DNA of 34,051 nt from a virus, in the IMG/VR virus record IMGVR_UViG_3300042534_000269, positions 1 through 34,051 of that record; one strand, 5' to 3'. The notes under the pieces were generated by a model. It was given only the letters and a program-made list of their open reading frames with translations. It did no database searches and was not told where the DNA came from. Positions 1,721 to 27,546 of this stretch are shown here, in pieces. A program made the position numbers and the translations under genes. Positions within the stretch are counted from its first letter, which is position 1. Each line of letters begins with the position of its first letter.

Positions 1721-1788
1721 GATATATTTCTCCTATATGTATAGCAAGTAATTTGTGTGTATCCCAACCATTTGGCAATACACAACTT

Positions 1789-1796
1789 TATTTATC
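1789..1796 (-). promoter_or_regulatory. Late-promoter-like box (GATAAATA) for hsp20
   Basis: The minus strand reads GATAAATA, 68 bases before the hsp20 ATG, matching the T4-type late core. It lies just downstream of the sigma70-type promoter at 1801-1828. Confidence 0.5.
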
Positions 1797-1800
1797 ACAC

Positions 1801-1828
1801 ATTATAGCACACTATACAGATTTGTCTA
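1801..1828 (-). promoter_or_regulatory. Sigma70-type promoter for hsp20
   Basis: On the minus strand: TAGACA (1823-1828), a 16-base spacer, then TATAAT (1801-1806) with the extended -10 TGC before it. It is in the 117-base gap between rpsU and hsp20. A small dyad TATAG-N4-CTATA (1803-1816) overlaps the -10. Confidence 0.6.
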
Positions 1829-1837
1829 GTGTTTCGA

Positions 1838-2047
1838 TTAAAATTTTCTAGTTTGGATTGTTTGTTCGCGGTCGGTTTTGCGTTGGCGGTTCTTGGCTGC
1901 TTTCTTAGCTGTTTGACGTTTTGTGGAAGGTTTGACGTATTCTTGCCGTTCCCTTACTTCTTGTACAATTCCTGCGTTTGATACTTGCTTCTTAAACTTA
2001 CGTATGGCTTTTTCGAAATTGTCGTTATAAACTGTTACTCTTGGCAT
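1838..2047 (-). CDS. rpsU: Ribosomal protein bS21 homologue
   Basis: 69 residues with the typical bS21 layout: a short beta start (MPRVTVYNDNFEKAIRKFKK), the central VQEVRERQEYVKPSTKR, and a lysine/arginine-rich C-terminal helix. bS21 sits next to the 16S rRNA 3' end on the 30S subunit and affects mRNA binding during initiation. A phage copy probably joins host ribosomes and biases them toward phage messages (inference). Its ATG overlaps the clpX stop (TAATG), and a strong AAGGAGG lies in the clpX coding end, so it is translated as part of a clpX-rpsU operon. Confidence 0.9.
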   Translation of the reverse strand: MPRVTVYNDNFEKAIRKFKKQVSNAGIVQEVRERQEYVKPSTKRQTAKKAAKNRQRKTDREQTIQTRKF

Positions 2048-3192
2048 TATGTTAACTTTACCTCCTTAGGATTGGTTATTAGTGATTTAGTAATTCTCAC
2101 TTTATTTATGTTGTTACGTGCGTATTTACTTACATTATACATGTGCGGTAATAAAGCTTTCTCCATAATGGATCTAAGACCTCGTGCGCCGGTTTTCTTT
2201 GCTATTGCAATGCTAACTACTTGAGATAGTGCATCGCTATCAAATGATAATTTAACATCGTTGTAATCGAATAGATGCTTATATTGTTGAACTAAATTGT
2301 TTTCGACACTACCTAATATGTTAAGCATGTCTAGTTCAGTTAACTCCTCGACTTCACCAATGATCGGAAATCTGCTAATAAATTCAGGAATTAATCCAAA
2401 TTCAATCAAATCACTAGCCTCCGTATTACGGATTACATCCTTCTTAACACTTGCACTAAATCCGATTTGTGTTGCTGACTTTAGTTTATTTTTAATCTTA
2501 TCAATTCCAACAAAGGCACCGCTTGCAATAAACAATATATTAGTTGTATCAATGGTTGCTGTAGCTTCTGTGATTTTATTTGTTACTATTGTAAATGTTG
2601 CACCTTCGACTAACTTCAACAATGACTGCTGTACACCTTCGTTGCCTACATCCTTCCCACTAAGTTTGTTACCTTTGGCAATCTTATCAATCTCATCAAG
2701 AAATACTATTCCGTGTTGTGCTTTCTTGACATCTCCTCCAGCTTTTTGTAGCAATTGTAATAACACCGAATCAACATCATCGCCTACATAGCCCGATTCG
2801 GTGAACCGGGTCGCGTCAGCTATAACAACAGGTACATGCAGATAATTAGCTAATGTCTTAACAAGTAGTGTCTTGCCGGACCCGGTTGGGCCAAGCAACA
2901 TTAGATTACTTTTGTCAAAATTTGCTTTTGCTGAGCTAATACGTTTAAAATGATTTGCGACTGCGACTGATAAAATTTTCTTAGCTTCGTCTTGACTAAC
3001 AATAAACTTGTCTAAGTGCTCTTTGAGCTCAATTGGATCAATAGCCGTAAGCTGATCGAACTTCGTTTTTTGCTTACTAAGAATGCCAGAACACAAATCT
3101 ATGCAATTATTACAAATGCCGGCACCGTCCCCTACAATTATCTTATTGACTTCGTCTTGGTTTTTACCACAAAAGTTACATATTTCTAACAT
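2047..3192 (-). CDS. clpX: ClpX-type AAA+ unfoldase
   Basis: 381 residues (E. coli ClpX has 424). The N-terminal zinc domain has C5, C8, C27 and C30. Walker A is GPTGSGKT (101-108), the pore loop GYVG is at 134-137, Walker B FLDEIDK at 164-170. An IGF loop (243-245), used by ClpX to dock ClpP, is present. The arginine-finger region PEFISRFP and sensor 2 GARGLRSIM are also conserved. The segment matching the E. coli GGRKHP (RKH) pore-2 loop is about four residues shorter and contains no RKH, so substrate choice may differ from that of the host enzyme. No clpP is in the window, so it probably works with host ClpP. Shine-Dalgarno AGGAG precedes the ATG. Confidence 0.93.
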   Translation of the reverse strand: MLEICNFCGKNQDEVNKIIVGDGAGICNNCIDLCSGILSKQKTKFDQLTAIDPIELKEHLDKFIVSQDEAKKILSVAVANHFKRISSAKANFDKSNLMLLGPTGSGKTLLVKTLANYLHVPVVIADATRFTESGYVGDDVDSVLLQLLQKAGGDVKKAQHGIVFLDEIDKIAKGNKLSGKDVGNEGVQQSLLKLVEGATFTIVTNKITEATATIDTTNILFIASGAFVGIDKIKNKLKSATQIGFSASVKKDVIRNTEASDLIEFGLIPEFISRFPIIGEVEELTELDMLNILGSVENNLVQQYKHLFDYNDVKLSFDSDALSQVVSIAIAKKTGARGLRSIMEKALLPHMYNVSKYARNNINKVRITKSLITNPKEVKLT

Positions 3193-8466: not shown

Positions 8467-8754
8467 TTATAGTCCTACGAATACTGTCTGTGCTGAAGAT
8501 GATCTGCCATGGCCACAAGTATCGGTGTCAGATGTAGTAAGAACAGGCTTGCCATCAGCAAAGACGGTCGAGCTACCGCCAGTCGTGGTTGCCGCACAAT
8601 GCGCACCACATCCCCTAGAGCCGCAACACGGATGCGGAGAGACTCCCATCCCGGGCTGGCCGACATTGCTACCTTCTGCAAACACCGTTGCGGCTCCTCC
8701 GTTAGCGGCGCCACCGGCTGTGTTTGTATCTCCACTTCTTACTACATTTCCCAT
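8467..8754 (-). CDS. PAAR-domain spike-tip protein
   Basis: 95 residues. PAAR proteins cap the membrane-piercing spike of contractile tails (T4 gp5.4 role). The start MGNVVRSGDTNTAGG is the typical PAAR opening. Repeats of the form GxxTVFAxG follow, and there are clustered Cys/His residues (HPCCGSRGCGAHC, TCGHGRSS) suited to metal binding at the tip. No Shine-Dalgarno is seen; an ACTAAATA box ends 5 bases before the ATG. There is no other plausible start, since the PAAR fold begins at the first residues. Confidence 0.88.
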   Translation of the reverse strand: MGNVVRSGDTNTAGGAANGGAATVFAEGSNVGQPGMGVSPHPCCGSRGCGAHCAATTTGGSSTVFADGKPVLTTSDTDTCGHGRSSSAQTVFVGL

Positions 8755-9124: not shown

Positions 9125-9369
9125 CTTAATTCCTCGACTTTTTGTCTAATAAGTGATGGAGTCAACTGCTGTAACAGTTGAAAACCAGCCAACAGTTTGG
9201 CATTAACATACAATTGGGGTACCGATTTATGTCCTTGTGTAATAACAAAATCCATTGCTACTGCATCTTCTAAAATGTTTTTAACTTCAAATTCAATTTG
9301 ATATTGAGTTAACATTTTTTTTGCTTGTTCGCATTGCGGGCAATCATCCTTGCTATAAATTGTTATCAT
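9121..9369 (-). CDS. Glutaredoxin-like protein
   Basis: 82 residues. It begins with a beta strand and the redox site CPQC (residues 10-13), followed by the cis-proline turn SVPQLYV and GFQLLQQL, all standard for glutaredoxin or NrdH-like proteins. It would pass electrons from glutathione or thioredoxin reductase to partners. The nearby ribonucleotide reductase is an obvious client, although it is co-transcribed with the desaturase and dioxygenases. Its ATG overlaps the upstream dioxygenase stop as ATGA, with AAGGCAAGG as Shine-Dalgarno. Confidence 0.9.
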   Translation of the reverse strand: MITIYSKDDCPQCEQAKKMLTQYQIEFEVKNILEDAVAMDFVITQGHKSVPQLYVNAKLLAGFQLLQQLTPSLIRQKVEELS

Positions 9370-10412
9370 GCCTTGCCTTTTCCTTCGTCTAATAAGTACT
9401 CTTTTTTACGTTGTTCGTCGCACATCGCGATGAACTCGTCCATTTTAATTTCCTTACCTTTATACAATGAACGAACATTCGGTTCGCCATCATTATAAAG
9501 TTTATTAAGGTACGAAGGTACACGTATCATTCTACGGTCAGGAGAGTCGCTGCGTAGTGTCATACGACGGTGTGCTGAAATTTCCTGTTCGAAGTACATG
9601 ACCTGACCATCTTTCCATTCGTGCTGGTAAGTCCATCGGGGATCGTAAATTTTCTCAGACAATTCTGCGTACAGCTTCCAACTTTCTAACTCAGACATTT
9701 CAGCGAATCCATTAAATGTATTGGTTGGCCAATGGATACCTGGACGACCACTACGAGTCTGCGATACCAACGGTGTTTGTAAGCCTTCGAGCGAAGCCAT
9801 GTTATAACGCGGTACTTCTTGTTGAGCTTGTGTTACTCCATCAAATACCCTACGTGTACGGAACTTGTGATTAACTGTAAGCTCTTTTAATTCGCTTTGC
9901 ATCGCGCCGGACAATCTCTCCCACATATCAAATGTTTGCAAGAAGTCTGTTCTGCTCCCTTTTGACCCGGATACGCTATGCAACCCAACAAAGCGAGGAG
10001 TTCCGATATGCCCAACCATGTCTGCATGCCATCCAAGTTCACCTGAATTAAACATACCGGACTTCTCAAAAGAAATCTCTGCGGCACCGATGTTATGCTT
10101 GATGCCAACATCTCTACTTAGTGCTGCGGTTAATGTAGCTTTTAATCTCTCCCAATGTGGGCCAGACAATCTACCATCTATAACACGTCTATGAACTTCA
10201 CCTACACTCGGATCACCCCATACATTTTGCACATCGTAAAATCGCTGTGAAGTTACACCCTTGCATGATTTCCTATTAATAAACACCGTGAGTTGATCTT
10301 CAACTAATTTACCAAGCTCTAGAATTTCATCTGGCTCTGCGTTCGCTAAATCAATATCATAGACTTCGCAACCAACACTACCGTAGTACCCTTTTAGTGG
10401 TTTTGTTTTCAT
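9366..10412 (-). CDS. TauD-like Fe(II)/2-oxoglutarate dioxygenase, copy B
   Basis: 348 residues. The family hydroxylates small molecules using Fe(II), O2 and 2-oxoglutarate. The metal triad looks intact: H129-x-D131 (GWHADM) and H281 (SAHRRMT). The 2-oxoglutarate arginine is R294 or R297 (SPDRRMIR). It is a paralogue of the next gene upstream: both start MKTKPLK and continue SVGCEVYD. The substrate cannot be read from sequence; taurine use is not implied. ATGA overlap with the upstream paralogue. Confidence 0.85.
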   Translation of the reverse strand: MKTKPLKGYYGSVGCEVYDIDLANAEPDEILELGKLVEDQLTVFINRKSCKGVTSQRFYDVQNVWGDPSVGEVHRRVIDGRLSGPHWERLKATLTAALSRDVGIKHNIGAAEISFEKSGMFNSGELGWHADMVGHIGTPRFVGLHSVSGSKGSRTDFLQTFDMWERLSGAMQSELKELTVNHKFRTRRVFDGVTQAQQEVPRYNMASLEGLQTPLVSQTRSGRPGIHWPTNTFNGFAEMSELESWKLYAELSEKIYDPRWTYQHEWKDGQVMYFEQEISAHRRMTLRSDSPDRRMIRVPSYLNKLYNDGEPNVRSLYKGKEIKMDEFIAMCDEQRKKEYLLDEGKGKA

Positions 10413-11485
10413 CTTTTTTCTTGTGCCTCTCTCTCTTTAAATATTCTGAGTCTATCAGCATCCACTAGAATAGCAAATTCTGCTGGGGTATATTTAATTC
10501 CTTTCCAATCAAACATGGTCGCTGCCCCGGTTCCAGGATATAATCTATCCATGTATGATACCGTACGTGTCATCTGCCGCAGCGGAGTTTCTGCTTTTAC
10601 CGTCGGGCGCTGGTGTACTGTAATGTTTTGATCCATGTACACTAACTGCCCATCTTGCCAAAACTGTCGATGAATCCACTTCTCTTTATTCACTGCCTTC
10701 CATAATGCTTTATGTAGTTTCTTCCCTTCTTTCTGCGACATACCAACGAATCCTGCAAAGCTCAGATTAGGATAGTTATATCCAGGAACTCCACTAGCAG
10801 TTTCATTATATAAGGAAGTCTGCATTCCATCGATTGGGACACCATTATAACGAGCTGCATCGAGTTGTTCTTGACTAACTGGCCCTAGATCTTCCGGAGT
10901 CCAGTTGTGAATCACTCGCAATTCCTTTATTGTGCTCTGCATGTCTGATGACATTTTCATCCACGCATCGTGCGTACTAAGGAAATCGGTTTCGCTACCT
11001 TTTGAATTCTTATAACTTGACAACCCGATTATACGACTACCATCATCGAATCCTGCTTGGTCCTGGTGCCAGCCTAATTTACCTTCTGTAAACATTCCAA
11101 TTGGTTTGCCAGTTTTTTCATCTGTATCAAAACTAATTGACACCATACCGGGTGACATATCTAGATCCGGATCTTCATTATAGATACCGCGGGCAATTTG
11201 CCCCAATGAACGTAACACTGGCCTCCAATGTCGTCCTTTGATCTTATGGTCCATGACATACTGCTGCATGATAGCGGTACATGGACTTCCCCACGACATC
11301 TGAACGTCGTACAATTGCCGACGGGTTGCTTTATTAACACTTTTTTTGCCGACTCGCACAATACAGTTATCTGCTACGATTTTTCCTAATTCATCGGATT
11401 CATCTGGTGACATGTTTGTAATGTCGAAATCATAAACTTCACATCCAACTGATGCGCTATAATTTTTTAATGGTTTAGTCTTCAT
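10409..11485 (-). CDS. TauD-like Fe(II)/2-oxoglutarate dioxygenase, copy A
   Basis: 358 residues. Metal ligands H140-x-D142 (GWHQDQ) and H291 (VHQRPT), with R303 or R307 as 2-oxoglutarate ligand. It shares MKTKPLK, SVGCEVYD, KGSxTDFLxT and the C-terminal YxxxLY with copy B, so the pair arose by tandem duplication, though the two have diverged widely. It has a different insertion around residues 100-130. It is coupled on both sides by ATGA overlaps (desaturase upstream, copy B downstream). Confidence 0.85.
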   Translation of the reverse strand: MKTKPLKNYSASVGCEVYDFDITNMSPDESDELGKIVADNCIVRVGKKSVNKATRRQLYDVQMSWGSPCTAIMQQYVMDHKIKGRHWRPVLRSLGQIARGIYNEDPDLDMSPGMVSISFDTDEKTGKPIGMFTEGKLGWHQDQAGFDDGSRIIGLSSYKNSKGSETDFLSTHDAWMKMSSDMQSTIKELRVIHNWTPEDLGPVSQEQLDAARYNGVPIDGMQTSLYNETASGVPGYNYPNLSFAGFVGMSQKEGKKLHKALWKAVNKEKWIHRQFWQDGQLVYMDQNITVHQRPTVKAETPLRQMTRTVSYMDRLYPGTGAATMFDWKGIKYTPAEFAILVDADRLRIFKEREAQEKR

Positions 11486-12438
11486 TTAGATACCTCTTTT
11501 TTTATCTTTTTCACTTTCTTCACTTTTTGAGTATCGATATTTTCATCAGACTCACCGAATTGTGACCAATGGAAATCTTTAGTTTTCATTTGCTTCTTTG
11601 GTGCGGTAGCAACTTCGCTTCCGGGGGTTTCAACTCGAACCTCGTTAATATTTTTGCCTATTAATTTAATAAACCAATAAGAAAAGTCGTATTCGCCTTT
11701 GTGTTGATCGTTGTTCGCTGCTCCAGGGAACTGATGATGATTATTGTGTTGGCAAAATCCTGGCGCGAGAATATATAGCGGCTTACAGTTACCATTTAAC
11801 GCATACCCATTTTTATCTTCTGGATTATTATATGGTCTACTAAAATTAAAACCGAATGGTTTCTCATTCCAATGACTCATAGTAGATGTTAATCCGACTA
11901 CAGTTAGTACATACACACCGGACACACCCCAAACATATCCAAATAACACTGGATCAATTGCATATAGTATTCCTGCATAAGCAACTAGTACCCAAATATA
12001 GTTATCGTGAAACCATTTATAATCCGGATCGGTTTTTAAATCCTGCATCGATTGTGTAACTTTCCAGTGGAACCGCTGATTAAAAAATAACACGATAAAA
12101 TGCCAAATTCCCGGGTTAACATTGATTGAGTGCGGATCTAATTCTGTGTCAGGATCCGCATGATGTGTTCTGTGCTCAGCTGACGTTAGGATAATACTGC
12201 CGATGCCGATACACGAACCGTATGCTAATAACAGAATCTTAACTAATCGATTCTTAGCTTCGAATGCTCTGTGACTTGCCATCATATGATGAATTACGTG
12301 CCACCCCACCATATGGAAGAACCAGCCATAAACTATCGCCAAAGCAAGATATAATCCATCAAAATAGTTATATAACGTCAGAAAGGCCACAATATACATT
12401 GATGCCATTGTAATTTTGTTTAATTGTTGTGCGTTCAT
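11482..12438 (-). CDS. Membrane fatty-acid desaturase (acyl-CoA/lipid type)
   Basis: 318 residues. It introduces a double bond in acyl chains with a di-iron centre. The three histidine boxes are present: HMMASH (51-56), HRTHH (89-93) and HNNHH (231-235). Hydrophobic spans flank them (about 10-47, 66-86, 146-185). A lysine-rich tail (KVKKVKKIKK) ends the protein. Phage desaturases would alter host membrane lipids during infection (inference). AAGGAG precedes the ATG. It heads the operon desaturase, TauD-like A, TauD-like B, glutaredoxin, small protein. Upstream is a short gap with a 12-bp palindrome CTTAGTACTAAG (12465-12476) and no clear promoter. Confidence 0.88.
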   Translation of the reverse strand: MNAQQLNKITMASMYIVAFLTLYNYFDGLYLALAIVYGWFFHMVGWHVIHHMMASHRAFEAKNRLVKILLLAYGSCIGIGSIILTSAEHRTHHADPDTELDPHSINVNPGIWHFIVLFFNQRFHWKVTQSMQDLKTDPDYKWFHDNYIWVLVAYAGILYAIDPVLFGYVWGVSGVYVLTVVGLTSTMSHWNEKPFGFNFSRPYNNPEDKNGYALNGNCKPLYILAPGFCQHNNHHQFPGAANNDQHKGEYDFSYWFIKLIGKNINEVRVETPGSEVATAPKKQMKTKDFHWSQFGESDENIDTQKVKKVKKIKKEVSK

Positions 12439-17959: not shown

Positions 17960-18646
17960 TTATGTTTCAAAGTATTCTTCTACTCGCCTCCACCAGCGTT
18001 TACGGTGATGATCATAGTCTTCTAAGTTAATAACAAATTCCTGGTACTCGTAGTCTTTGCTACACACCATAATAACACCCTTACGGATGTTTGTGCCGTA
18101 TAAGGCGTTATGTGCTTCGCCGTAGGCTGTTAGCTGCAAGAAGTAATCCTGCACCCATTCAATCTTTTTTGGTTTATTTGTTTGCTTAAAGTCGCCGATT
18201 GCTTCCTCACCTTCGTGTATTCCCACAAGGTCAGTAGTGCCAGCATAAATGTTCGGATGGCAGAGCATTACTTCCGTACCCCACACTTCATTCATTTTTG
18301 ATAGACCGTTATCGATAACGGTCTGGGCCATTTTGTTCGCTTGTTTAGAATACGGATTAGTACCAGGTTCGCGAAGTACACCATCTGCAATGTAATCTTC
18401 TAGGTACTTGTGCATACGAGTACCTCGCCCTGCTGCTTCTTTAGTGATTTCGTTTGCTTTTTGGTAGCCTACAGCTTTCTTCCAGTTTTCAAGTGCAAGA
18501 CGATCGGCTTCTGGTTTGGTACGATCTAGTACTGTAGTGACACTCGGCATTGGCGTGTAATCTGTGCCTTCTAGCAAATAATGACGTTTGCCGTTTACGT
18601 TTTTTCGTTTTAGTGACTTGTAGTCAAATCTTGGTTTTAATAACAT
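17960..18646 (-). CDS. PD-(D/E)XK exonuclease
   Basis: 228 residues. The RecB/Cas4-like nuclease core is clear: GTRMHKYLE (75-83), then E125, D139 in YAGTTDLVG, and D152-F-K154 (IGDFKQ), followed by the QLTAYGEAHN helix with the conserved Gln and Tyr. It probably resects DNA ends for recombination or degrades host DNA. There is no other plausible start near the N-terminus. A consensus sigma70 promoter puts its -10 just 6 bases before the ATG, so the message is predicted to be leaderless. Confidence 0.88.
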   Translation of the reverse strand: MLLKPRFDYKSLKRKNVNGKRHYLLEGTDYTPMPSVTTVLDRTKPEADRLALENWKKAVGYQKANEITKEAAGRGTRMHKYLEDYIADGVLREPGTNPYSKQANKMAQTVIDNGLSKMNEVWGTEVMLCHPNIYAGTTDLVGIHEGEEAIGDFKQTNKPKKIEWVQDYFLQLTAYGEAHNALYGTNIRKGVIMVCSKDYEYQEFVINLEDYDHHRKRWWRRVEEYFET

Positions 18647-18684: not shown

Positions 18685-19092
18685 TTACGAGCTTTGTATT
18701 TCCACATACCTCGGATTGTAAGCATATATCTCAAACTCGCCAAGCCCGGCTCGTTGTAGCTCGTCGATTATTTCTTCACCAGTTTCACGCCACTCATCTT
18801 TCATCATTTGGTTATTATTTTGGTTATTATTTTTGCGTTTAACTCTAGGTGTCTTGTTACTATCAGATGCTGGAACCGATACTATAATTCTAACCGGTGC
18901 TGTACCATCGACGCCGGCCTGTGACACACTTGCTCTGTGCGGTGCACCAAGGTATTGATCGACATACTGATTTACAAATGCTTCGACTTGCTGTACATCA
19001 ATGCCATCACTCGCAGAAGGTGGAAAGTAATCATCTTCTGCAAGATCAATGGATTCCATTAAGTTTCTAAGTTGAGTTACTTCGTTATTCAT
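18685..19092 (-). CDS. Small protein with candidate capsid-targeting N-terminus
   Basis: 135 residues from the ATG at 19092; an in-frame ATG at 19119 would add nine residues. I prefer 19092 because the resulting start, MNNEVTQLRNLMES, matches the start of the gene at 19462 (MYKESAQLRNLMEA). Both place L-M-E|(S/A) so that cleavage would follow residue 13, as expected of a T4 gp21-type prohead protease site. The rest has a RIIVSVPAS strand, an asparagine-rich linker (KNNNQNNNQ) coded by two 12-bp repeats, and an acidic tail. It overlaps the end of the upstream gene. Internal head protein is inferred, not shown. Confidence 0.6.
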   Translation of the reverse strand: MNNEVTQLRNLMESIDLAEDDYFPPSASDGIDVQQVEAFVNQYVDQYLGAPHRASVSQAGVDGTAPVRIIVSVPASDSNKTPRVKRKNNNQNNNQMMKDEWRETGEEIIDELQRAGLGEFEIYAYNPRYVEIQSS

Positions 19093-19462
19093 ACTTGCCG
19101 TAAACCCCTTTTCTAGCATTGCGTCTTGCCATTTTGCTGACCACCTTTTTAGCTTTGTCTACATCCATTACTGCACCGTCTATCTCGTGCTGACCTTTGA
19201 ATTGAATCTCGTCATCGTTGACATCCTTAATAATCGCACCTAGCTTTCCACTTTGTGCAAGATCCATTAATGTGTCGCGAGTCAATGATAATCCCATTTT
19301 GTTAGCCAGACTAACAAAGGCATCTGTACTAAGCTTCGATGGAGAGTTTTCTTCTTCTGTTCTGTCTGCAATTAACTGACTAATAGCTGCAAGCTGCTCG
19401 TCGTGGGCTGCTGCCGGGTCTTCCGTAACTATATTCATTAACGCTTTCATGTCTGGGTACAT
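19085..19462 (-). CDS. Hypothetical protein in head-core-like block
   Basis: 125 residues, mostly helical and charged. The N-terminus MYPDMKALMNIVTEDPAA has a short helix and then V-T-E|D, close to but not matching the strict (L/I)-x-E|(A/G/S) site. A lysine/arginine-rich end (KKVVSKMARRNARKG) may bind nucleic acid. Its ATG overlaps the stop of the upstream gene. No family recognised. Confidence 0.6.
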   Translation of the reverse strand: MYPDMKALMNIVTEDPAAAHDEQLAAISQLIADRTEEENSPSKLSTDAFVSLANKMGLSLTRDTLMDLAQSGKLGAIIKDVNDDEIQFKGQHEIDGAVMDVDKAKKVVSKMARRNARKGVYGKYE

Positions 19463-19701
19463 TATTCGTACTCGTCTTGGTCATCTAGTCCAATATCAAT
19501 CTCATTTGCACGTAACATATCCGCAACCTCATCAGTTGACATATAACTTAGCATAGCATTAATAAGATAGTCCTTATCGATCAAACCATCGCCGAGTGCG
19601 TTTATTACTTCGCCTCGGATATCGTAGTCTGAGCTCGAGTGGCGTGATTCCGTTGTCACTGCTTCCATTAAATTTCTTAATTGTGCTGATTCTTTATACA
19701 T
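19462..19701 (-). CDS. Small protein with candidate capsid-targeting N-terminus
   Basis: 79 residues starting MYKESAQLRNLMEAVTT, with the prohead-protease-like site L-M-E13|A14. The mature part would be an acidic, mostly helical 66-residue protein ending DDQDEYE. It is coupled by overlap with the gene downstream and lies 4 bases from the one upstream. The shared leader with the gene at 18685 suggests a common address tag rather than a common function. Confidence 0.6.
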   Translation of the reverse strand: MYKESAQLRNLMEAVTTESRHSSSDYDIRGEVINALGDGLIDKDYLINAMLSYMSTDEVADMLRANEIDIGLDDQDEYE

Positions 19702-19705
19702 AATA

Positions 19706-20257
19706 TTAACCTAGGTTGTATCCTGCTTTTTGTAAAATTTCCAATGCCCGATCGCGGTCTTTGCTGTTAATAATAATATCTGTCTTTGCACTGCGGCTTC
19801 CACTTTGTGCGTCGATGCCAGCTTGCTTTAACTTAGATAAACGATCGTAAACTTGATCGTCTGTAGCTACCGGACGCATTGCAAGAACCATATGCGCTTC
19901 TTCAAGCGGCTCTTCTTCCACAATAGCTTCACCAGTGTCAACCATTTCACCGAACTCGTCTTCGCTTCCTGTTGCTTCTTCCTGAAGCTCCTTGATTAAG
20001 CTGCTAATAGATTCGTCGGCTGACATATACGAGTCGTCGCCGGCAATAATTGCCAACTGTGCTAAGCCGTAGGATTCCCAGTAGGCTAACTTGTCCGGAA
20101 TATAAGCGCGGATAGTATCATGCAACATTTCACGGGCTTCAAATATACGCTCCTGAATTGTTTCAAGTAACTCAATTGCGTCGTACACTTCCTCCATGGA
20201 TGCAGCCTCACTTAATAAGTTTAACGAGTCCCTGACAGATTCAGTTAACTTTTTCAT
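19706..20257 (-). CDS. Helical protein with two prohead-protease-like sites
   Basis: 183 residues. The first 20 carry L-T-E6|S7 and L-S-E17|A18 (MKKLTESVRDSLNLLSEAAS). The middle is a long acidic helical region, and the last 60 residues (MVLAMRPVATDDQVYDRLSK, then the TDIIINSKDRDRALEIL region) look like a small alpha/beta domain. It starts at a TAATG overlap with the scaffold-like gene upstream. A head-core or internal role is inferred. Confidence 0.6.
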   Translation of the reverse strand: MKKLTESVRDSLNLLSEAASMEEVYDAIELLETIQERIFEAREMLHDTIRAYIPDKLAYWESYGLAQLAIIAGDDSYMSADESISSLIKELQEEATGSEDEFGEMVDTGEAIVEEEPLEEAHMVLAMRPVATDDQVYDRLSKLKQAGIDAQSGSRSAKTDIIINSKDRDRALEILQKAGYNLG

Positions 20258-21153
20258 TATCTGCGCTCGCGACCTAAGTCAACTTCCTCTTCGTCGGCTT
20301 CAAGATCTAAATCAAAACCTTCGTCATCGTCCATACCTAAGTCCATCTCATCGTCACCAATATCCATATCTAAGTCTAGCTCATCGCTTGCGCCGAACTC
20401 GTCTACGTCTAAATCATTATCGCCCATGGCAACATCTTGACCTGTAAGTACTGCAACCGCATTATTAACATCGCCTTTAACTTGCTCTAACGTAGAAGTT
20501 AAAACATCAAGCGAACTAACCAGTGAGGTATTAAACGCTTCAGCAGCCTCGACACCTTGGCTGTTACGAATGTTATCATGTAATGCTGGAAGATTCTTGT
20601 ACTTAACGTCAGCGAACTTCTCAATCATTGTTTGTATTTGGTCCGCAATGTCTTGAGCAGCTAATGTGGTTTGAGCCGTATCAATTTCGCCTTCGGTTAA
20701 CGCACGTTTTGATTTCTTGTTCTCGATAATTTTACGCATAAACTTCTGTGAAGCTGTAGCACTTTCGAGTACTGCTTTCATGCCTGCCGACACTTTAAGT
20801 GATTTGATTTGAGCTTCGGATAACTTGCCGCCTCTGGCTGCTATCTTTAAAGCTTTTAGGTAGTTGTTTGTCATCATAGATTCCTGTAATTTTTCGGTGT
20901 TAGCCAACTCTTCGTAACGTTTAAATGCTGCTTCTTTAATCATAACTAATTTCAAGTACGCTGGATTATTTTCGCTTTCGGTTAGCCCGTTTTTATTCAT
21001 GTAATTGAACAATAAGCTGTTTGCTTTATTGAGTAAATCGACGCTTTCTTTTAATCCTAGTTTAGCAAGATTACATCGCTTTCCAAACTGAGCAGTAATA
21101 AGATCAGCGACCTTATTAGACGTGACTTTTGTAGTTAAATCTGTTAGATTCAT
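20257..21153 (-). CDS. Putative prohead core/scaffold-like protein
   Basis: 298 residues, helical, with a very acidic C-terminal 55 residues (runs such as DELDLDMDIGDDEMDLGMD). It contains six matches to the T4 gp21 cleavage rule: LKE36|S, LTE59|S, IKE74|A, LQE91|S, LSE113|A and LTE154|G. Many sites plus an acidic tail resemble the T4 gp22 scaffold, which is digested to peptides on head maturation. However, no major capsid protein or protease lies in this window, so the gp22 link is inference only. Shine-Dalgarno AAAGGA precedes the ATG, with a late-type box upstream. Confidence 0.6.
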   Translation of the reverse strand: MNLTDLTTKVTSNKVADLITAQFGKRCNLAKLGLKESVDLLNKANSLLFNYMNKNGLTESENNPAYLKLVMIKEAAFKRYEELANTEKLQESMMTNNYLKALKIAARGGKLSEAQIKSLKVSAGMKAVLESATASQKFMRKIIENKKSKRALTEGEIDTAQTTLAAQDIADQIQTMIEKFADVKYKNLPALHDNIRNSQGVEAAEAFNTSLVSSLDVLTSTLEQVKGDVNNAVAVLTGQDVAMGDNDLDVDEFGASDELDLDMDIGDDEMDLGMDDDEGFDLDLEADEEEVDLGRERR

Positions 21154-21616
21154 TTAATGAAGTTCCTTTAATTTGTATGTATTTAGCAGATTCTATTCTT
21201 TTCGATAATTGTTTTCTGATTACCTGTCTACTGTGCATATCTTCGGTTAATCGACACTGAAGTACCTGCTTTTTATCTTCGTCGGTATCTTTTGCTTTGA
21301 TTCGTAATAAGGTAATATCAATGTCTGTTTGCTTACGTACAAGATTCAAGTCGAATCGATGCAAATCTCTAGCAGCATGTAATTTGCCTGCTTTTATTAA
21401 TATGCACCAGGCTAGTGCTGCCCTGGAGGTACTAAATTCTACACAGTGCCCGTCCGATTTCACAGTCCAGCAATTAACTTGATTATTAATCACAAATCGA
21501 TCATATACTACATACGCCGTGCCCTTCATCACAATAATGTTATTTCTAAGATCTCTGTCAGAGAACGTGTCGCTGGCTATTTGTCTAATAGACTTACTGA
21601 CGTCTTTAAAATTCAT
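21116..21616 (-). CDS. Hypothetical protein, basic C-terminus
   Basis: 166 residues. The N-terminal half is beta-rich with Cys and Trp (GTAYVVYDRF, then VNCWTVKSDGHCVEF). The second half is helical and strongly basic, ending KGTSLNESNRFNYK. Its start lies inside the end of the gene upstream and its end overlaps the scaffold-like gene by 38 bases. No family recognised; a nucleic-acid or capsid contact is possible from charge only. Confidence 0.55.
   Translation of the reverse strand: MNFKDVSKSIRQIASDTFSDRDLRNNIIVMKGTAYVVYDRFVINNQVNCWTVKSDGHCVEFSTSRAALAWCILIKAGKLHAARDLHRFDLNLVRKQTDIDITLLRIKAKDTDEDKKQVLQCRLTEDMHSRQVIRKQLSKRIESAKYIQIKGTSLNESNRFNYKSHV
21180..21187 (-). promoter_or_regulatory. Late-promoter-like box (GCTAAATA)
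   Basis: GCTAAATA on the minus strand, 26 bases before the scaffold-like gene ATG and inside the end of the preceding gene. The leader would include the AAAGGA ribosome site. Confidence 0.4.
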
Positions 21617-22022
21617 CGGTTAAAAATTCTGTGTTCATATCCGGGCCATCTGCTATTATAAACGCATTGTCGGCAGCTTGCTCTGTTAACCCAACCAGAA
21701 ATGGCACATTGCCGCAATCTTCTTTAAGCAGTCCTAGCGCATCATCTCCTACTTTGTACGCATCGATTGTTTCGATATCGAACTCCAGTACCCATTTCTT
21801 ATCTCGTTTAACCGTATGAATATTCAATGGTTGTGTACGCAAGGATATTATCTGTATTAACGTTTCCCAGTTACTCTGTTGACGGCGAGCAGTAACCCAT
21901 TCGTCTTTTGTAACTAGGAACGTCGATCCTGCTTTAAACGGCAGTAATTCTTTTTTAAAATTACGAACCACTCCGGTATTTGTAATATCAAAGTCTGTAA
22001 TTATTTTGATGTGTTGCGGCAT
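21606..22022 (-). CDS. Hypothetical protein with leaderless-type start
   Basis: 138 residues. It reads as a folded protein (IKIITDFDITNTGVV, then WVLEFDIETIDAYKVG), with an acidic end. No family recognised. It follows a strong terminator on the minus strand, so it begins a new transcript. A GTTAAATA box ends 5 bases before the only plausible ATG and no Shine-Dalgarno is present. Confidence 0.6.
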   Translation of the reverse strand: MPQHIKIITDFDITNTGVVRNFKKELLPFKAGSTFLVTKDEWVTARRQQSNWETLIQIISLRTQPLNIHTVKRDKKWVLEFDIETIDAYKVGDDALGLLKEDCGNVPFLVGLTEQAADNAFIIADGPDMNTEFLTDEF

Positions 22023-22027
22023 AATAC

Positions 22028-22035
22028 TATTTAAC
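22028..22035 (-). promoter_or_regulatory. Late-promoter-like box (GTTAAATA)
   Basis: GTTAAATA then 5 bases then ATG at 22022. It sits between the terminator and the gene, which supports a promoter role. Confidence 0.4.
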
Positions 22036-22055
22036 TACTTAAAAATACGGTCATA

Positions 22056-22082
22056 AAAAAGCCCGACTTAGCCGGGCTTTTT
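22056..22082 (-). terminator. Rho-independent terminator
   Basis: A 10-bp stem, AAAAAGCCCG and CGGGCTTTTT, with a 7-base loop, ending in a T run on either strand. It lies 22 bases after the stop of the 91-residue gene (22104-22379), so it ends that short transcript. It is the only clear terminator in the window. Confidence 0.9.
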
Positions 22083-22103
22083 AGTTTATTACGATCAGTT
22101 AAC

Positions 22104-22379
22104 TTAGAATGCTAAGTCTGAACCAGTAAAGCCAGTTACAAGTGCATCTGCTGTGTTATCAGTGTCTGCACCAGAGATGATCATGTTAACTGCTGTCGAA
22201 ACACCAGCTTCAAATTCACCTACTACTTCAATAGTAGAAGTAAGCATTACTGCCTGAGCTAACTCATTCATTTCGTCCTGAGTGATTGCTGCACCTTTTG
22301 TGTATGTTTTGTAGAATAAATCACGTCCGATGAACTGAGCTGTATCTACTTGACCGTGTACTTTTGTTACGCCTGCCAT
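22104..22379 (-). CDS. Small protein, single-gene late transcript
   Basis: 91 residues starting MAGVTKVHGQVDTAQFIGRD. It is small, mostly uncharged and beta/Ala/Thr-rich, without a signal peptide or membrane segment. It has a GATAAATA box, a Shine-Dalgarno (AGGAG, 7 bases) and its own terminator, so it is a monocistronic unit. That arrangement is usual for an abundant virion protein such as a capsid decoration protein, which is a guess from context. No family recognised. Confidence 0.7.
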   Translation of the reverse strand: MAGVTKVHGQVDTAQFIGRDLFYKTYTKGAAITQDEMNELAQAVMLTSTIEVVGEFEAGVSTAVNMIISGADTDNTADALVTGFTGSDLAF

Positions 22380-22436
22380 TTTAATTCTCCTAATTTCTGA
22401 TTAAATGTTTGGGGTTCTTATGTATCCCGTTATAAT

Positions 22437-22444
22437 TATTTATC
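22437..22444 (-). promoter_or_regulatory. Late-promoter-like box (GATAAATA)
   Basis: GATAAATA on the minus strand about 57 bases before the ATG at 22379; the Shine-Dalgarno lies in the leader. Confidence 0.6.
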
Positions 22445-22459
22445 TCTTTGACAAATTTT

Positions 22460-24382
22460 TTAACGATGTGCAGCCCGATTTGCGGCGGTAAATGTGCCTC
22501 TTGGTACTAATTTAACCGCACCTTCCGGATGTTTAACTACATACCCTTCTCCGCCTGGTCGACCAGCGATAGATTGTTGTACATCGCTAGGATGTGCGTC
22601 AAATTCTGTTATTAAATAATCCTTTAACTTCATTATCATGCTGATCAGAGTCCAAAGAGCTTTTACCCCTACTTTATGCTGCTGTAGGTACGCAAGGATA
22701 GTCTGACGTTTCTTTTCGGTTAACGTCTCCGTGTTTAACCAGTCCGTGAAGTCTGAACCCAGACGTTCTAGTCCAGAATCTACTTTGTTGTTAATGTATT
22801 TGTACATTAACGCATGAATGTTAGCGATACCTTTAAGCCCAGTTGGATCAAACAAATTCTTAATTTCATTGATATGTTGTTTAGCATACGTTTCGATCTT
22901 GTCAACTGGTTTTGTATTAATTGTAGAAGGATGTTGCACATACACCGGAGGAATAACAAATACCTCCTTACCTTGCATCTGTTTGATCGCTTCTTCAGTT
23001 GAACTGTACTGGTCGCCTGTGTACTTGTGTACTACTACTCCGGTCTTGGATTGGCCGACACGTTGCCCTAATTTCGAATCTTTTCTTACTTCGTACCGTA
23101 CAGTGTTAGGTTGAAACACATAGCTGTCTTTGTCTTGATCCGGGGTATTATAATACATAAGGTCGCCCATCATGTACCCACGGAAATCTGCAGGTGTAGC
23201 TTTTTGGTATTCGTCAAATATGTCCATCATATTAGATACAAACTGCTTACGGTTGTCGTCCATCGGAGCTGCTCTACCTGCAAACATTTGTCCTAATTCT
23301 TTAGCTGATGTTGCCTTGCCATTGTACCCTTTAGCTGTGAATCCTGATTTATCTGTTAGTACAAATCGGCCTTGCTCGTTACGCCCAAACACAATACTAG
23401 GACTTCCATCCCACTTAATAGTTGTTTCAGTATGAGCCGAACCTTCAGCAAAGCTACGAAGTATCTTAATAGCTTTGATCAGTCCGGCTGGACCTTCATC
23501 TAACACTAAATCCTCAATATGATTCATATCGCGGAGCTTGCCTTCAGTTACTATGGTTTTCTCCATAATCACATCGCTACCAGTTGACATAATTTTATCT
23601 CTTAGCCGTGCTAAGAAGTACGAATCGGTGTCATTGGTTTCGTGTACTATAGAATCGTTCGGCATTGGCAGTTTTACACCGTAGTGCTCTGCTAATGTCG
23701 CAGCCGCTTCGCCTATAAGTGCTTCGATTTTAGCATCTTGACCTTTATATTTTGTGTAAACGTAGTCAAGTATGCTTTTCACGCTTAAATCTGCAGGGTT
23801 TGCAGTATAACCAGGGAGGAGTGTCCGCACAATCTGATTAGGATCCTGCGATATAACTTCGTTTGTCACACGATTAACTAAACCGTCGCGGTAACTCCAC
23901 TTCATCCCGTGTGCCTTTGCAATACTTGCCATGATTATATGTCGGTGTACACCCTTGTACTCGTTTCCTGGTTCGCCACGCATACTCCATTTCTGGAATG
24001 CGGGATTACCGAACATTAAATCTAGCTGTGCAAAACCACCGGTATGTCTTCCCTTACTATCTCGAATGGGCGTTTTAAAATGTACATTAGTACCGCTCAA
24101 TTTAACCCATTCGCCTGGTGCTTGTCCTTGTTCTTTGGCCCATTGCTTGAGCTTGTTTGCTACATCTTTCTTATCGTGCTTGGATTCATCAACAGATATG
24201 TCAATATCTCCACTTGATTCTTTTTTGCCTGTCGTACCCAAGTACCCGTCGAGTCTAAACCCGAGGATCTTCTCTACAAACGCAACAGATGGTTTGATAT
24301 TTTCTTTGTTTATGCGGGTTGTAAGAGGCTGTTTCTTAGCGTCCTTGAATACATTGCCACCTTCAAATATATTACCAAACAT
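22460..24382 (-). CDS. Nucleotidyltransferase fused to ligase-like domain
   Basis: 640 residues. The N-terminal part has a polymerase-beta-type nucleotidyltransferase core: LGTTGKKESSGDIDISVD (48-65, acidic residues D59 and D61) and the third carboxylate D121 (FAQLDLMF). The second half has motifs of the covalent nucleotidyltransferase (DNA/RNA ligase) fold in order: motif I K323-WDGSP, a motif III-like RGYMMGDLMY (401-410), motif IV EGYVVK (612-617) and motif V VKLVPRGTF (623-631). The N-terminus MFGNIFEGG fits a prohead-protease site I-F-E7|G8. It starts one base after the gene upstream. From memory, similar proteins occur in other marine T4-like phages without known function. Confidence 0.7.
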   Translation of the reverse strand: MFGNIFEGGNVFKDAKKQPLTTRINKENIKPSVAFVEKILGFRLDGYLGTTGKKESSGDIDISVDESKHDKKDVANKLKQWAKEQGQAPGEWVKLSGTNVHFKTPIRDSKGRHTGGFAQLDLMFGNPAFQKWSMRGEPGNEYKGVHRHIIMASIAKAHGMKWSYRDGLVNRVTNEVISQDPNQIVRTLLPGYTANPADLSVKSILDYVYTKYKGQDAKIEALIGEAAATLAEHYGVKLPMPNDSIVHETNDTDSYFLARLRDKIMSTGSDVIMEKTIVTEGKLRDMNHIEDLVLDEGPAGLIKAIKILRSFAEGSAHTETTIKWDGSPSIVFGRNEQGRFVLTDKSGFTAKGYNGKATSAKELGQMFAGRAAPMDDNRKQFVSNMMDIFDEYQKATPADFRGYMMGDLMYYNTPDQDKDSYVFQPNTVRYEVRKDSKLGQRVGQSKTGVVVHKYTGDQYSSTEEAIKQMQGKEVFVIPPVYVQHPSTINTKPVDKIETYAKQHINEIKNLFDPTGLKGIANIHALMYKYINNKVDSGLERLGSDFTDWLNTETLTEKKRQTILAYLQQHKVGVKALWTLISMIMKLKDYLITEFDAHPSDVQQSIAGRPGGEGYVVKHPEGAVKLVPRGTFTAANRAAHR

Positions 24383-24383
24383 A

Positions 24384-25040
24384 TTAAGTCCTTAATCTAT
24401 ATACATCTTGATCTTTAATAGATGTGATTTTAGTAAACAATGCACTCTTTAAGCGTCTGACTTTCTGCTTCGCCATTAACTGATCTATCACTGCTTCCCC
24501 GCTATCATCAATAGGTTTTGCAACGGAATATCCAGCTGCATTCTTTTTCCACTTGTGCCAAACACCATTTGTATTTGAATAGATGTAATCGCCAGGGTTA
24601 GGAATTCGGTGGCCATTGACGTCGTGTGTCGGAACAAAGATATCAGTTAGAACCGAATTCCCTAGATCAGTGAACGACTGTTCTAGTTCAAATGATTTTG
24701 AAATCACATTTGATATCGCACTTAATACTTGTGGACTACTAATATTGTCAGGATCGGCAACTGCCGCTTTAAGCAGAGCAGTCATACGGCCGGCAATTTC
24801 CGGATCATCAAGATCTACTTTTGATGATTTTTTCATAGTAGTTGAAATGATGTCTGCTATTCGAGCAGGATCAATGGAAGAATTATTAGCTTTAGCATCT
24901 GAGATTATACCGTCGATGCGCTTACTTAGTAGCTGCTGCACCGCTTTTGCTATCTTAGGTGTGTTCTTCTGACGTAGTGCTAATTTCTTTGAGGCTAATC
25001 GATCTGAGTTAGCCTCTACTATAAACTCATTTGCTTTCAT
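24384..25040 (-). CDS. Probable internal head protein with capsid-targeting peptide
   Basis: 218 residues. The start MKANEFIVEANSD closely resembles the T4 internal-protein targeting peptide (MKTYQEFIAEA in IPII/IPIII). It would be cut after I-V-E9|A10. The mature part is basic and helical for about 110 residues, then carries a compact segment GDYIYSNTNGVWHKWKKN, and ends in a basic helix. I infer packaging in the head and delivery with the DNA. It overlaps the next upstream gene by 14 bases. Confidence 0.65.
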   Translation of the reverse strand: MKANEFIVEANSDRLASKKLALRQKNTPKIAKAVQQLLSKRIDGIISDAKANNSSIDPARIADIISTTMKKSSKVDLDDPEIAGRMTALLKAAVADPDNISSPQVLSAISNVISKSFELEQSFTDLGNSVLTDIFVPTHDVNGHRIPNPGDYIYSNTNGVWHKWKKNAAGYSVAKPIDDSGEAVIDQLMAKQKVRRLKSALFTKITSIKDQDVYRLRT

Positions 25041-25275
25041 TAATTCGTCCTAAACTACGTTTAAACTTGAGCGAGTCCTTTAGCTTAATTGAGTTAAGCA
25101 ATTTTCGTTTTAAATCATCTGCTTCTTCTGCTGTGTACGTTTCTTCCATTAGTTCTATTAGATTAATTGCACTAGCGATAATATTAGCGGCACGGGATTC
25201 AATGACATGTTTAGTGTCGTGTGCTGTGTGCATACTCTCTAGCTCTTCTAATATACTACGGGTCTTCTTTTGCAT
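25027..25275 (-). CDS. Small helical protein in head-core-like block
   Basis: 82 residues, almost all helix, with alternating acidic and basic runs. It ends LGRINESK, containing an I-N-E|S site, and it has an internal IELMEETYTAEEAD. Size and charge resemble T4 prohead core proteins, but without detectable similarity. A late-type box lies 24 bases upstream and a weak GCGAG ribosome site is present. Confidence 0.5.
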   Translation of the reverse strand: MQKKTRSILEELESMHTAHDTKHVIESRAANIIASAINLIELMEETYTAEEADDLKRKLLNSIKLKDSLKFKRSLGRINESK

Positions 25276-25308: not shown

Positions 25309-26712
25309 CTACGACTTAATCTTATTAAGTAACAAGTTTAACTTTGCTGACTGCACATCTCCACGGACAAGGACCGGATCTTCACCGTCTACGGCGCCTG
25401 TGGCAACGCCTGGAGTGACTGTGGATTTCGCTTTAATACCATCTAATATGCTGAGCGACGATTGGCTGCCCGGTGGGTTTGCTTGCGGACCTAGATCAAA
25501 TATACGCAACGTGTCAACATCAAATTCCAAATCAATTTTTTGTCCAACCCCGGCCGAAGAGCGAGTTTTCATTAACTGTAGCTGATACTTGCCGCGTTCG
25601 CGCATTGCACGTGATGTAAATATACCAAACACGTTATCTGCTGTGTTAATCTTTGAGATACCACCTGATATCATACTATGGTCAAACTCTTGTTCTTCTA
25701 CTGCTGAACGGTTTAATTGGGATGCGGTTACCATCAATACGTCTAACTCTTTGCCTAGGTTGCGGATTTCTTCCGACACGTACTTGTCCTTTACAAACAA
25801 GTCACTAGGACTAACTTTAGCACTAACCGGCATCAATAGATCCAAGTAATCGATACACATGAAGTCAATCTTCTTGCCTGTCTTAACTTGCAGCTCTTTA
25901 ACGTACGATCGAATATCATTGATGTTGCTCTGTGCCGGAAAGTACTTAATTTGCAAGTTACCCGAGACCTTAGCTTTTATCTTCACTTTCATTTCGACGT
26001 CGTCGATGTTCTTAAAAATTGCGTTGCTTGCTGTATCTGTCATCATGCTGTCAATACGCATTGCGCACAGGTCTTCACTGAGCTCCAAGGTGATGAATAC
26101 TCCGTTGAGATTCATCCCTGCCCAGTTAACTGCTAAGTTCTGCATGAAGAGCGATTTGCCCGAACCCGATCCACCAGCAAATATTTGTAGCTCACCTCGG
26201 TTGAATCCACCATACAACTTATAATCCATTGTTGGCCATCCCGTTGAGGCTTGCCCATTGTTATTCTTGATGGCCAGTAATCGTGCCTTGGGATCTTCGA
26301 AGTAATCTGTGCCCATATCCTTTGTCAGACTGATCTGTACTGCGTCTTTGATCAGTTTCTCAACTGGAGCAAAGTCGCCCTTCTCTAATAGATCAGCTGA
26401 TTTAAGAATGGCACGTTCTAGCTCTTGTCGTTTGGTAAAACTTTCGAACTCCTCCATAAACCAGTCATAATGACCATCGTTAATCTCCTCAGGTAATGGC
26501 AATAACCTTATTTCTGTCATCGCTAATAGCTGAGATAATTCCGGTAATGTTCCGTACTTAGTTGAATGCTTCTCCATGAAGTCTGCTGCCGGTTGCAGGC
26601 TAGGATGAAAGTTTTTAACATTAAATATGTTCTGCACACGCACAAAACTTTGAGCGTCTGCGATCATCATTTCAAGAAAGAGCTTCTGGATTTGAAGTGT
26701 GTACTCTGTCAT
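25309..26712 (-). CDS. 41: Replicative DNA helicase, DnaB/T4 gp41 type
   Basis: 467 residues (T4 gp41: 475). It unwinds DNA 5' to 3' at the fork as a hexamer and works with the primase. Walker A is GGSGSGKS (180-187), Walker B FMCIDYLDLL, followed by VTASQLNRSA. The N-terminal helical domain (1-130) and a short acidic-then-basic C-terminus are as expected. Its ATG overlaps the stop of the homing endonuclease gene (ATGA), so translation of the two is coupled. Confidence 0.93.
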   Translation of the reverse strand: MTEYTLQIQKLFLEMMIADAQSFVRVQNIFNVKNFHPSLQPAADFMEKHSTKYGTLPELSQLLAMTEIRLLPLPEEINDGHYDWFMEEFESFTKRQELERAILKSADLLEKGDFAPVEKLIKDAVQISLTKDMGTDYFEDPKARLLAIKNNNGQASTGWPTMDYKLYGGFNRGELQIFAGGSGSGKSLFMQNLAVNWAGMNLNGVFITLELSEDLCAMRIDSMMTDTASNAIFKNIDDVEMKVKIKAKVSGNLQIKYFPAQSNINDIRSYVKELQVKTGKKIDFMCIDYLDLLMPVSAKVSPSDLFVKDKYVSEEIRNLGKELDVLMVTASQLNRSAVEEQEFDHSMISGGISKINTADNVFGIFTSRAMRERGKYQLQLMKTRSSAGVGQKIDLEFDVDTLRIFDLGPQANPPGSQSSLSILDGIKAKSTVTPGVATGAVDGEDPVLVRGDVQSAKLNLLLNKIKS

Positions 26713-27485
26713 AGTTTACCCTTACAATTATCGAAGTGCCATCTGATAAAATTTGGACCATCTTTTCCGCTTTTGTTACAATGCGGGCACTCTAATGTAG
26801 CTGCATTTTTATATTTTCCGAACATACCGTTATTTTCTCCTTTATTAGCATTTGAAATTAATTTTTTAGTTTCTTCTGTCTGGGTGTTGCCGTACATAGG
26901 GTTTTTCTCACCACTGTGGTCAGGTGCAATCAATTTCCAAGTCTCAGACATTTTCTTCTTTGTTTCTTCTGATTTCGGACGGGGAATTCCGGTGTTAGCT
27001 TTTGAAATCTTTTGTTTCGTTTCATCCGAATGGAACTTCCCCATCATCGGTTGACGCTTCTTTCTCGCATGTGATTCGGAAATTTTCTGTTTCATTTCAT
27101 TTGCTCTCTTCTGCCCGTAACGCTCATTGTAGTCAATTCCTGTTGTTTCGAGAGATATTTGCTCTCTTAATACTGCATACGTTCTCGCTGTCAATACAGA
27201 CGTATCTTTGCTGTTGGCTAACCGCCACACTGCATAACACATTTTCCGCTTTGCTTTGCCTTCTGTCATTTTAGTAAGTAGTCGATGACAAATAAAATGT
27301 TCCCTGTGTGTTAAGTGTACTCCATTCCAGTTGTGTTTAGATAAAGTTTTATATTCAGGAAATAGTGACTCTGGCAACACATGATGATGATTAGTCTCAT
27401 GTGGTATTTTAATATCGGCCGCCTTGTAAATAATATTAAAATACCATCTTGTATACTTGTTATTGATAAATTTATAGTTTCTCAT
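26709..27485 (-). CDS. HNH homing endonuclease with NUMOD3 repeats
   Basis: 258 residues from the ATG at 27485; upstream in-frame ATGs at 27503 and 27500 overlap the promoter box and are less likely. The HNH-type core is NHHHVLPESLF, then NGVHLTHREHFICHRLLTKM. Several NUMOD3-type DNA-binding repeats follow (KFHSDETKQKISKANTG, PKSEETKKKMSETW, TQTEETKKLISNANKG). The C-terminus has a zinc-finger-like CPHC-x16-H-x3-C-type segment. It is a selfish mobile gene placed exactly between primase and helicase. No Shine-Dalgarno; a GATAAATA box ends 5 bases before the ATG. Confidence 0.9.
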   Translation of the reverse strand: MRNYKFINNKYTRWYFNIIYKAADIKIPHETNHHHVLPESLFPEYKTLSKHNWNGVHLTHREHFICHRLLTKMTEGKAKRKMCYAVWRLANSKDTSVLTARTYAVLREQISLETTGIDYNERYGQKRANEMKQKISESHARKKRQPMMGKFHSDETKQKISKANTGIPRPKSEETKKKMSETWKLIAPDHSGEKNPMYGNTQTEETKKLISNANKGENNGMFGKYKNAATLECPHCNKSGKDGPNFIRWHFDNCKGKL

Positions 27486-27490
27486 ACTAT

Positions 27491-27498
27491 TATTTATC
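27491..27498 (-). promoter_or_regulatory. Late-promoter-like box (GATAAATA) for homing endonuclease
   Basis: GATAAATA, 5 bases, then the ATG at 27485. Free-standing homing endonucleases of T4 also use late promoters (known); the leaderless spacing is the unusual part. Confidence 0.5.
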
Positions 27499-27546
27499 AT
27501 CATTTCTAAAAATATATTTAAAAGTTATGCAATCTCATATGTATAT

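Follow-up and report, generated by a model that had tools for sequence, protein, structure and literature searches.

The window analyzed here, a 34-kb viral fragment (34,051 nt; IMG/VR record IMGVR_UViG_3300042534_000269), is a piece of a jumbo T4-like phage genome, and the block of genes that it carries between a gp41-type helicase and a RecB-like exonuclease very probably encodes virion proteins, probably mostly internal to the head, with T4-type capsid-targeting propeptides whose leaders would be cut by a gp21-type protease. Targeting sequences and internal head proteins are known from T4, where cutting by gp21 after L-x-E is an established rule. Five window proteins follow the T4-type propeptide rule, (L/I)-x-E↓(A/G/S), strictly, and six do so if the E↓D of 19085 is counted (the arrow marks the cut, P1 and P1' are the residues before and after it, and genes are named by their lower coordinate; Table 1).

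The initial annotation had likened the start of the 24384 product to a T4 leader, and the likeness to IPI, IPII, and IPIII holds, with MKTYQEFIAE↓A (the reading of IPII and IPIII in NC_000866) and MKANEFIVE↓A having F-I-x-E↓A in common. The motifs that it read in 19706 (LTE6↓S and LSE17↓A) and in 22460, its nucleotidyltransferase-ligase protein (IFE7↓G), are present, and an N-terminal (L/I)-x-E↓(A/G/S) is found in all five proteins it named, for 18685 with a start at the internal Met10. Specifically, 18685 and 19462 do share QLRNLME(S/A), and the cut placed after residue 13 in both is correct for 19462; in 18685, the Glu of QLRNLME↓S is residue 22 from the longest-open-reading-frame start and residue 13 only from Met10. 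Met10 is likely the real start, given an 8-nt overlap with the upstream gene and orthologues in loci L001 (VKETKQLRNLME↓S) and L003 (MKETDQLKKLME↓S) that begin at the same place. Further sites, absent from the initial annotation, are E280↓G281 (22460), E154↓G155 (20257), and E14↓D15 (19085), the last being the weakest of the sites because its P1' is Asp. The slot of 19085 is shared with CBB_299 (MRFSQITE↓D; two peptides detected by mass spectrometry, MS) and RaK2 ORF136 (MKFRDIVKITE↓D), and the three are probable members of one family; in the 19706 family, the motif is found in 6/6 members.

The worry voiced with the original prediction, that such short motifs might occur by chance, is answered by an enrichment in the block at both gene and family level. 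Across the helicase-to-exonuclease blocks of 16 loci, the motif [LI]xE[AGS], counted when P1 fell at residue 5-17, marks 38/163 block genes versus 4/208 other genes (p=3e-11), and control motifs in which E was swapped for D, K, or Q reach about 1-2%. Because genes of related loci are not fully independent, the count per protein family is the safer figure, and it gives 16/49 for the block versus 3/67 for the others (p=6e-5). In the window alone, the motif marks four of the 11 block genes (five with the Met10 start of 18685) versus none of the 32 others, for a binomial p of 4e-5 (1e-6 with five genes) at a background rate of 1.9%.

Further, the leaders fall into classes that recur on unrelated proteins: M(K/R)xxEF(I/V)xE, QLRNLME, and DKILNEAF. 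QLRNLME precedes unrelated bodies in the window, in L001, L003, L011, and L090, and in a 344-kb relative, and the EFIxE class is also found on two unrelated proteins of L003 (15365 and 15936). When checked in relatives, leaders were kept while bodies diverged. Identity in the 24384 family is 78% over leader columns 5-9 and 14% over the rest; residues 1-4, lying within the 14-nt overlap with the end of the preceding gene, were left out of this count because that gene partly constrains them, and residues 5-9 lie outside the overlap and carry synonymous changes. Since codons differ among leader copies, it is the peptide that is conserved. Genome-wide, M(K/R)xx(E/D)(F/I)IxE leaders number 8, 7, and 4 in three jumbo relatives versus 0.9, 0.5, and 0.5 in shuffled sequence, with single shuffles of the third relative reaching as high as 5. 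An all-against-all comparison of N-termini also returned matches that were set aside, namely plain domain starts and a VWDRLKNG family unrelated to the leaders.

Several observations concern such leaders and their surroundings. A 14-nt overlap joins the end of an upstream gene (NESK-stop) to an EFIxE leader (ATGAAAGC) at 25027-25040 in the window and at 15936-15949 in L003; the two junctions are unrelated, and the overlap may aid the swapping of cargo genes by recombination. In the cyanophages P-RSM6 (L004 9162-10259) and P-TIM40 (L005 9174-10247), the cytidylyltransferase-like neighbor of DUF6267 starts MITFHVFITE↓A and MRFLDFIKE↓A, respectively, which suggests that cyanophages also use such leaders. 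In three settings, a candidate L-x-E or K-x-E cut precedes the motif (S/T)xxG(A/S/T)T(S/G)AGxxAT: in G001 gp23 (264347-265537), in small proteins of 52-65 aa (L236 1938-2096, L240 1960-2136), and at the C-terminus of an Atu_ph07 protein (L237 11985-14321).

The prohead protease gp21 (S77), whose site preference the initial annotation had proposed to examine, was found in the 344-kb relative, an IMG/VR contig whose helicase is 81% identical to that of the window. There, the T4 head cassette order gp20-67-68-21-22-23 is present, with matches to gp21 (PF03420, E=2.5e-25) and gp23 (E=1.1e-96); PF03420 and PF07068 gave clear matches in relatives and none in control genomes. In this contig and two other jumbo relatives, gp23 carries LAE↓S, LAE↓N, and LME↓S where the T4 cut would be expected, and close to the N-terminus of gp21 itself are LEE↓A, LVE↓G, and IVE↓S. 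The L-x-E rule is thus plausibly valid in this lineage. Propeptides of gp21 and T4 targeting residues are given in PMC9026906.

Cleavage, for which the conservation of sites and leaderless starts speak indirectly, is predicted at two positions in the nucleotidyltransferase-DUF6267 protein, 22460. Its first site, (L/I)xE↓GG(N), is kept in 10/10 relatives behind a leader that varies in length and sequence, and at the second, E280 is followed by G/A in every intact relative. In the AlphaFold model, the predicted local distance difference test (pLDDT) score falls below 50 only in residues 1-8 and 243-285, the segments that hold both sites. Leaderless homologues begin at the first cut (Atu_ph07 MGGRAF, Phosso MGGAAF, and PA5oct MSGNAF versus E↓GGNVF), cyanophage homologues begin at the second (MAKNTHLEHLED aligned to E↓GKLRDMNHIED), and standalone DUF6267 proteins have their own leader at the E280↓G281 position. 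Residues 8-242 are, judged by predicted fold and signature, a Pol-beta superfamily nucleotidyltransferase: Foldseek matched them to Pol lambda/beta (E=5e-4, probability 1.0), and the signature G[GT]x(n)DhD is present and conserved (GTTGKKESSGDIDISVD). DUF6267 has the ligase-like motifs KWDG, EGYV, and K, of which K323-W-D-G326, E612-G, and K624 are invariant in relatives. Neither T4 RnlB nor the ligase-like protein of Atu_ph07 gave a significant match when compared with the DUF6267 profile, a PDB sequence search with DUF6267 matched no ligase, and the only PF09414 matches, weak ones, were in the ligase-like genes that Atu_ph07 and Phosso carry separately; the label "ligase" for DUF6267 is therefore one given by motifs.

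The acidic 298-aa protein, 20257, matches a family of virion structural proteins (phrog_14154), and its homologues were detected by MS in PA5oct and CBB. A hydrophobic-x-E precedes its conserved domain at E154 in 13/13 aligned sequences, with the P1 Glu invariant and Met at P3 in one, and L/I-x-E is kept there in seven phages of distant hosts (six isolate phages checked). In the six isolate phages, K-E↓S also follows the acidic tail, and the window protein stops just short of that point.

Published virion MS of PA5oct, CBB, and Atu_ph07, whose gene order is as in the window block, suggests that the block products are present in virions. In PA5oct, the 15 coding sequences (CDS) that separate the helicase from the exonuclease include 11 with a structural annotation based on electrospray-ionization tandem MS (ESI-MS/MS), among them the homologues of 20257 and of the nucleotidyltransferase. 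In CBB, four of eight block products were detected (CBB_292, 294, 298, and 299; PMC5259590), and Atu_ph07 CDS 31-76 include 29 virion proteins (PMC6102473). By CDS count, the Atu_ph07 exonuclease is gp35 and the helicase gp70, in agreement with the published naming of gp70 as helicase (PMC6102473); the block is thus gp36-gp69, and at least 17 of its 34 proteins are in virions. Beyond gene order and ESI-MS/MS-detected products, the likeness of these phages to the window includes homologues of 20257, 25027, and the nucleotidyltransferase domain, but the nucleotidyltransferase of PA5oct and Atu_ph07 is separate, leaderless, and beside a ligase-like gene. Hence, of the earlier proposal that the block encodes a cocktail packaged with DNA and injected, the part concerning particles stands for many syntenic-block products in three relatives, while head location and N-termini lie outside what MS showed. 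Of the checks suggested along with that proposal, most of those open to computation turned out favorably.

Within the MS-rich virion cluster of Atu_ph07 (MF403008) is a tandem array of about ten paralogues with the leader M(R/K)WxQLxE (L237 11985-22008). Their bodies read YRGM...S(F/I)xC...NE(V/I)W(I/M)(S/T)G, resembling the ADP-ribosyltransferase R-S-E signature, and one of the paralogues also carries a fused P-loop domain of the polynucleotide-kinase/zeta type. The array may be an Alt-like injected set.

In the model we propose, most block proteins would be loaded into the prohead as precursors with N-terminal leaders of 7-14 residues, each leader would bind the scaffold core as a T4 capsid-targeting sequence does, and a gp21-type prohead protease would cut after (L/I)-x-E. 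The mature cargo would stay with the DNA and probably be ejected into the host; cutting at internal sites would split the nucleotidyltransferase-DUF6267 precursor into two enzymes and strip residues 1-154 from the acidic 298-aa protein. That the proteins lie inside the head, are targeted there, and are injected is suggested here by analogy with T4. The T4 internal proteins likewise combine a constant leader, about 10 residues long, with bodies that vary, and follow a gp21-type cut rule; the block differs in its far larger number of cargo genes, its several leader classes, its fixed place beside replication genes, and its enzymatic cargo. T4 Alt, an injected ADP-ribosyltransferase with a 7-residue propeptide, would be a parallel to MFGNIFE↓G as a large enzyme behind a very short propeptide; the window enzyme differs in being a nucleotidyltransferase-DUF6267 fusion with an internal site. 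The phiKZ/SPN3US ejection proteins, a large head-internal set cleaved by the phage prohead protease, may be comparable, but their lineage differs from that of the window phage.

What the cargo does can be put less firmly. In relatives, block products probably include enzymes apparently capable of mending broken nucleic acid ends, and these may act in RNA or DNA end repair. The repair system of jumbo phages that pairs the RlaP nucleotidyltransferase with an RNA ligase (PMC7824862) is a possible counterpart that likewise combines a Pol-beta-type nucleotidyltransferase with a ligase-like partner (KxDG, EGxV, K); no description of virion packaging or proteolytic release was found in that paper. 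Tentatively, the block might deliver a packaged two-enzyme repair kit (nucleotidyltransferase and ligase, from one precursor with two sites) together with fast-evolving effectors, injected to undo host nuclease defenses before phage gene expression, an idea that we consider possible but speculative.

Several findings weigh against a block of leader-targeted, protease-processed head proteins. The MS-studied phages are not close relatives of the window virus, and published MS shows presence in the particle, not head location or N-termini. In PA5oct, the nucleotidyltransferase is a virion protein although leaderless, so a leader must be dispensable in some cases. No N-terminal site was found in 21116, 21606, or 22104, which have weak homology to the PA5oct proteins of the same slots; some P1' residues (Asp, Asn, and Glu) depart from the A/G/S rule; and gp21 was not found within the 34-kb window. 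Finally, bare [LI]xE[AGS] is not N-terminally enriched across all genes of the 344-kb relative; it is therefore not diagnostic alone, and the signal lies in this block and in the specific longer leader families.

The main rival explanation takes the block products for ordinary structural parts of the particle (neck, tail, whiskers, or an inner-body rod), which the prohead protease would process during assembly but which would never be injected. The MS papers do label block proteins as structural, whiskers are seen on Atu_ph07 (PMC6102473) and CBB (PMC5259590), phAPEC6 has an inner-body rod (PMC7247149), and the 298-aa protein is acidic and helical, and core- or scaffold-like. However, gp21 sites imply passage through the prohead, and both the fast turnover of bodies behind constant leaders and a Pol-beta-type nucleotidyltransferase as cargo fit delivered effectors better; we therefore regard this explanation as possible but on the unlikely side. 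Considerably less probable is that the leaders are localization or assembly tags read by a factor other than gp21, for example in a phage replication compartment. The leader classes do differ (EFIxE, QLRNLME, and DKILTE), and targeting itself is argued from likeness to T4, but every class ends in L-x-E↓small, as in gp23 and gp21 of the relative, and block products are in the virions of relatives. That the motifs reflect chance, gene duplication, or overlapping frames rather than selection for a protease site is hardly credible, since, short as they are, overlapped as the first 24384 leader residues are by the upstream gene, and lacking in genome-wide enrichment as the bare motif is, the enrichment is strong and block-specific, the conserved leader residues 5-9 of 24384 lie outside that overlap, the bodies are unrelated, and the P1 Glu is conserved at several separate sites.

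If the block does encode head-targeted, cleaved cargo, its mechanism is already known from T4, and what appears to be new lies in the lineage, in how much cargo there is, and in a nucleic-acid-repair precursor with two sites; in a partial coverage of the literature, we found no paper describing targeting leaders in this jumbo lineage, nor one describing a nucleotidyltransferase-ligase precursor that is carried in virions and has two sites for the prohead protease. The leader rule would offer a sequence handle for picking injected or head-internal proteins among the unknowns of jumbo T4-like phages, could aid the search for host-takeover and counter-defense effectors, and would explain why many virion proteins in published proteomes come from a block that looks non-structural and sits between two replication genes. 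A further suggestion is that a pair of enzymes is freed from one precursor in a phage head.

Table 1. Features of the block and its boundaries in the window, with leaders and candidate cuts.
Coordinates	Strand	Feature	Leader or candidate cut	Basis
22460..24382	-	640-aa Pol-beta-type nucleotidyltransferase fused to DUF6267	MFGNIFE (24362-24382), E7↓G8	PF19782 E=2.6e-36; Foldseek Pol lambda
23528..23656	-	Interdomain linker of 22460, residues 243-285	Second candidate cut TIVTE280↓G281 (E codon 23543-23545)	Conservation and low pLDDT
20257..21153	-	298-aa acidic helical virion-protein homologue	Candidate cut LTE154↓G155 (E codon 20692-20694)	phrog_14154 E=1.3e-17
24384..25040	-	218-aa variable protein	MKANEFIVE (25014-25040), candidate cut E9↓A10	Leader class M(K/R)xxEFIxE common to relatives
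19462..19701	-	79-aa protein	MYKESAQLRNLME (19663-19701), E13↓A14	QLRNLME leader class on unrelated bodies
18685..19092	-	135-aa protein from Met10	MNNEVTQLRNLME (19054-19092), E13↓S14	Overlap and orthologue starts
19706..20257	-	183-aa protein	Candidate cuts LTE6↓S7 and LSE17↓A18	Relatives MSDKILTE↓AFDK, MGDKILTE↓AFDK
19085..19462	-	125-aa protein	MYPDMKALMNIVTE (19421-19462), candidate cut E14↓D15	Slot match to CBB_299, RaK2 ORF136
21116..22379	-	Three block genes (21116, 21606, 22104)		Slots in PA5oct include MS-detected structural proteins
25027..25275	-	82-aa conserved gene, helicase edge of block		Homologue CBB_292, one MS peptide in virions
25309..26712	-	gp41-type DnaB helicase, one block boundary		phrog_19 E=9e-63
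17960..18646	-	RecB-like exonuclease, opposite block boundary		phrog_298 E=5.5e-49

For the small block proteins, all Pfam matches were below cut-off, and an NCBIfam search gave no matches. Elsewhere in the window, an HNH homing endonuclease gene (26709-27503) sits as an insertion between the genes for helicase and primase. At 9366-12438, next to the ribonucleotide reductase genes, are two TauD-like dioxygenase paralogues in tandem and a protein resembling fatty-acid desaturases, all probably auxiliary metabolic genes. A small glycine-rich protein at 8467-8754 is PAAR-like, as judged by eye, and the region 1256-3192 encodes an Hsp20-like chaperone and a ClpX-like ATPase with an N-terminal zinc finger.

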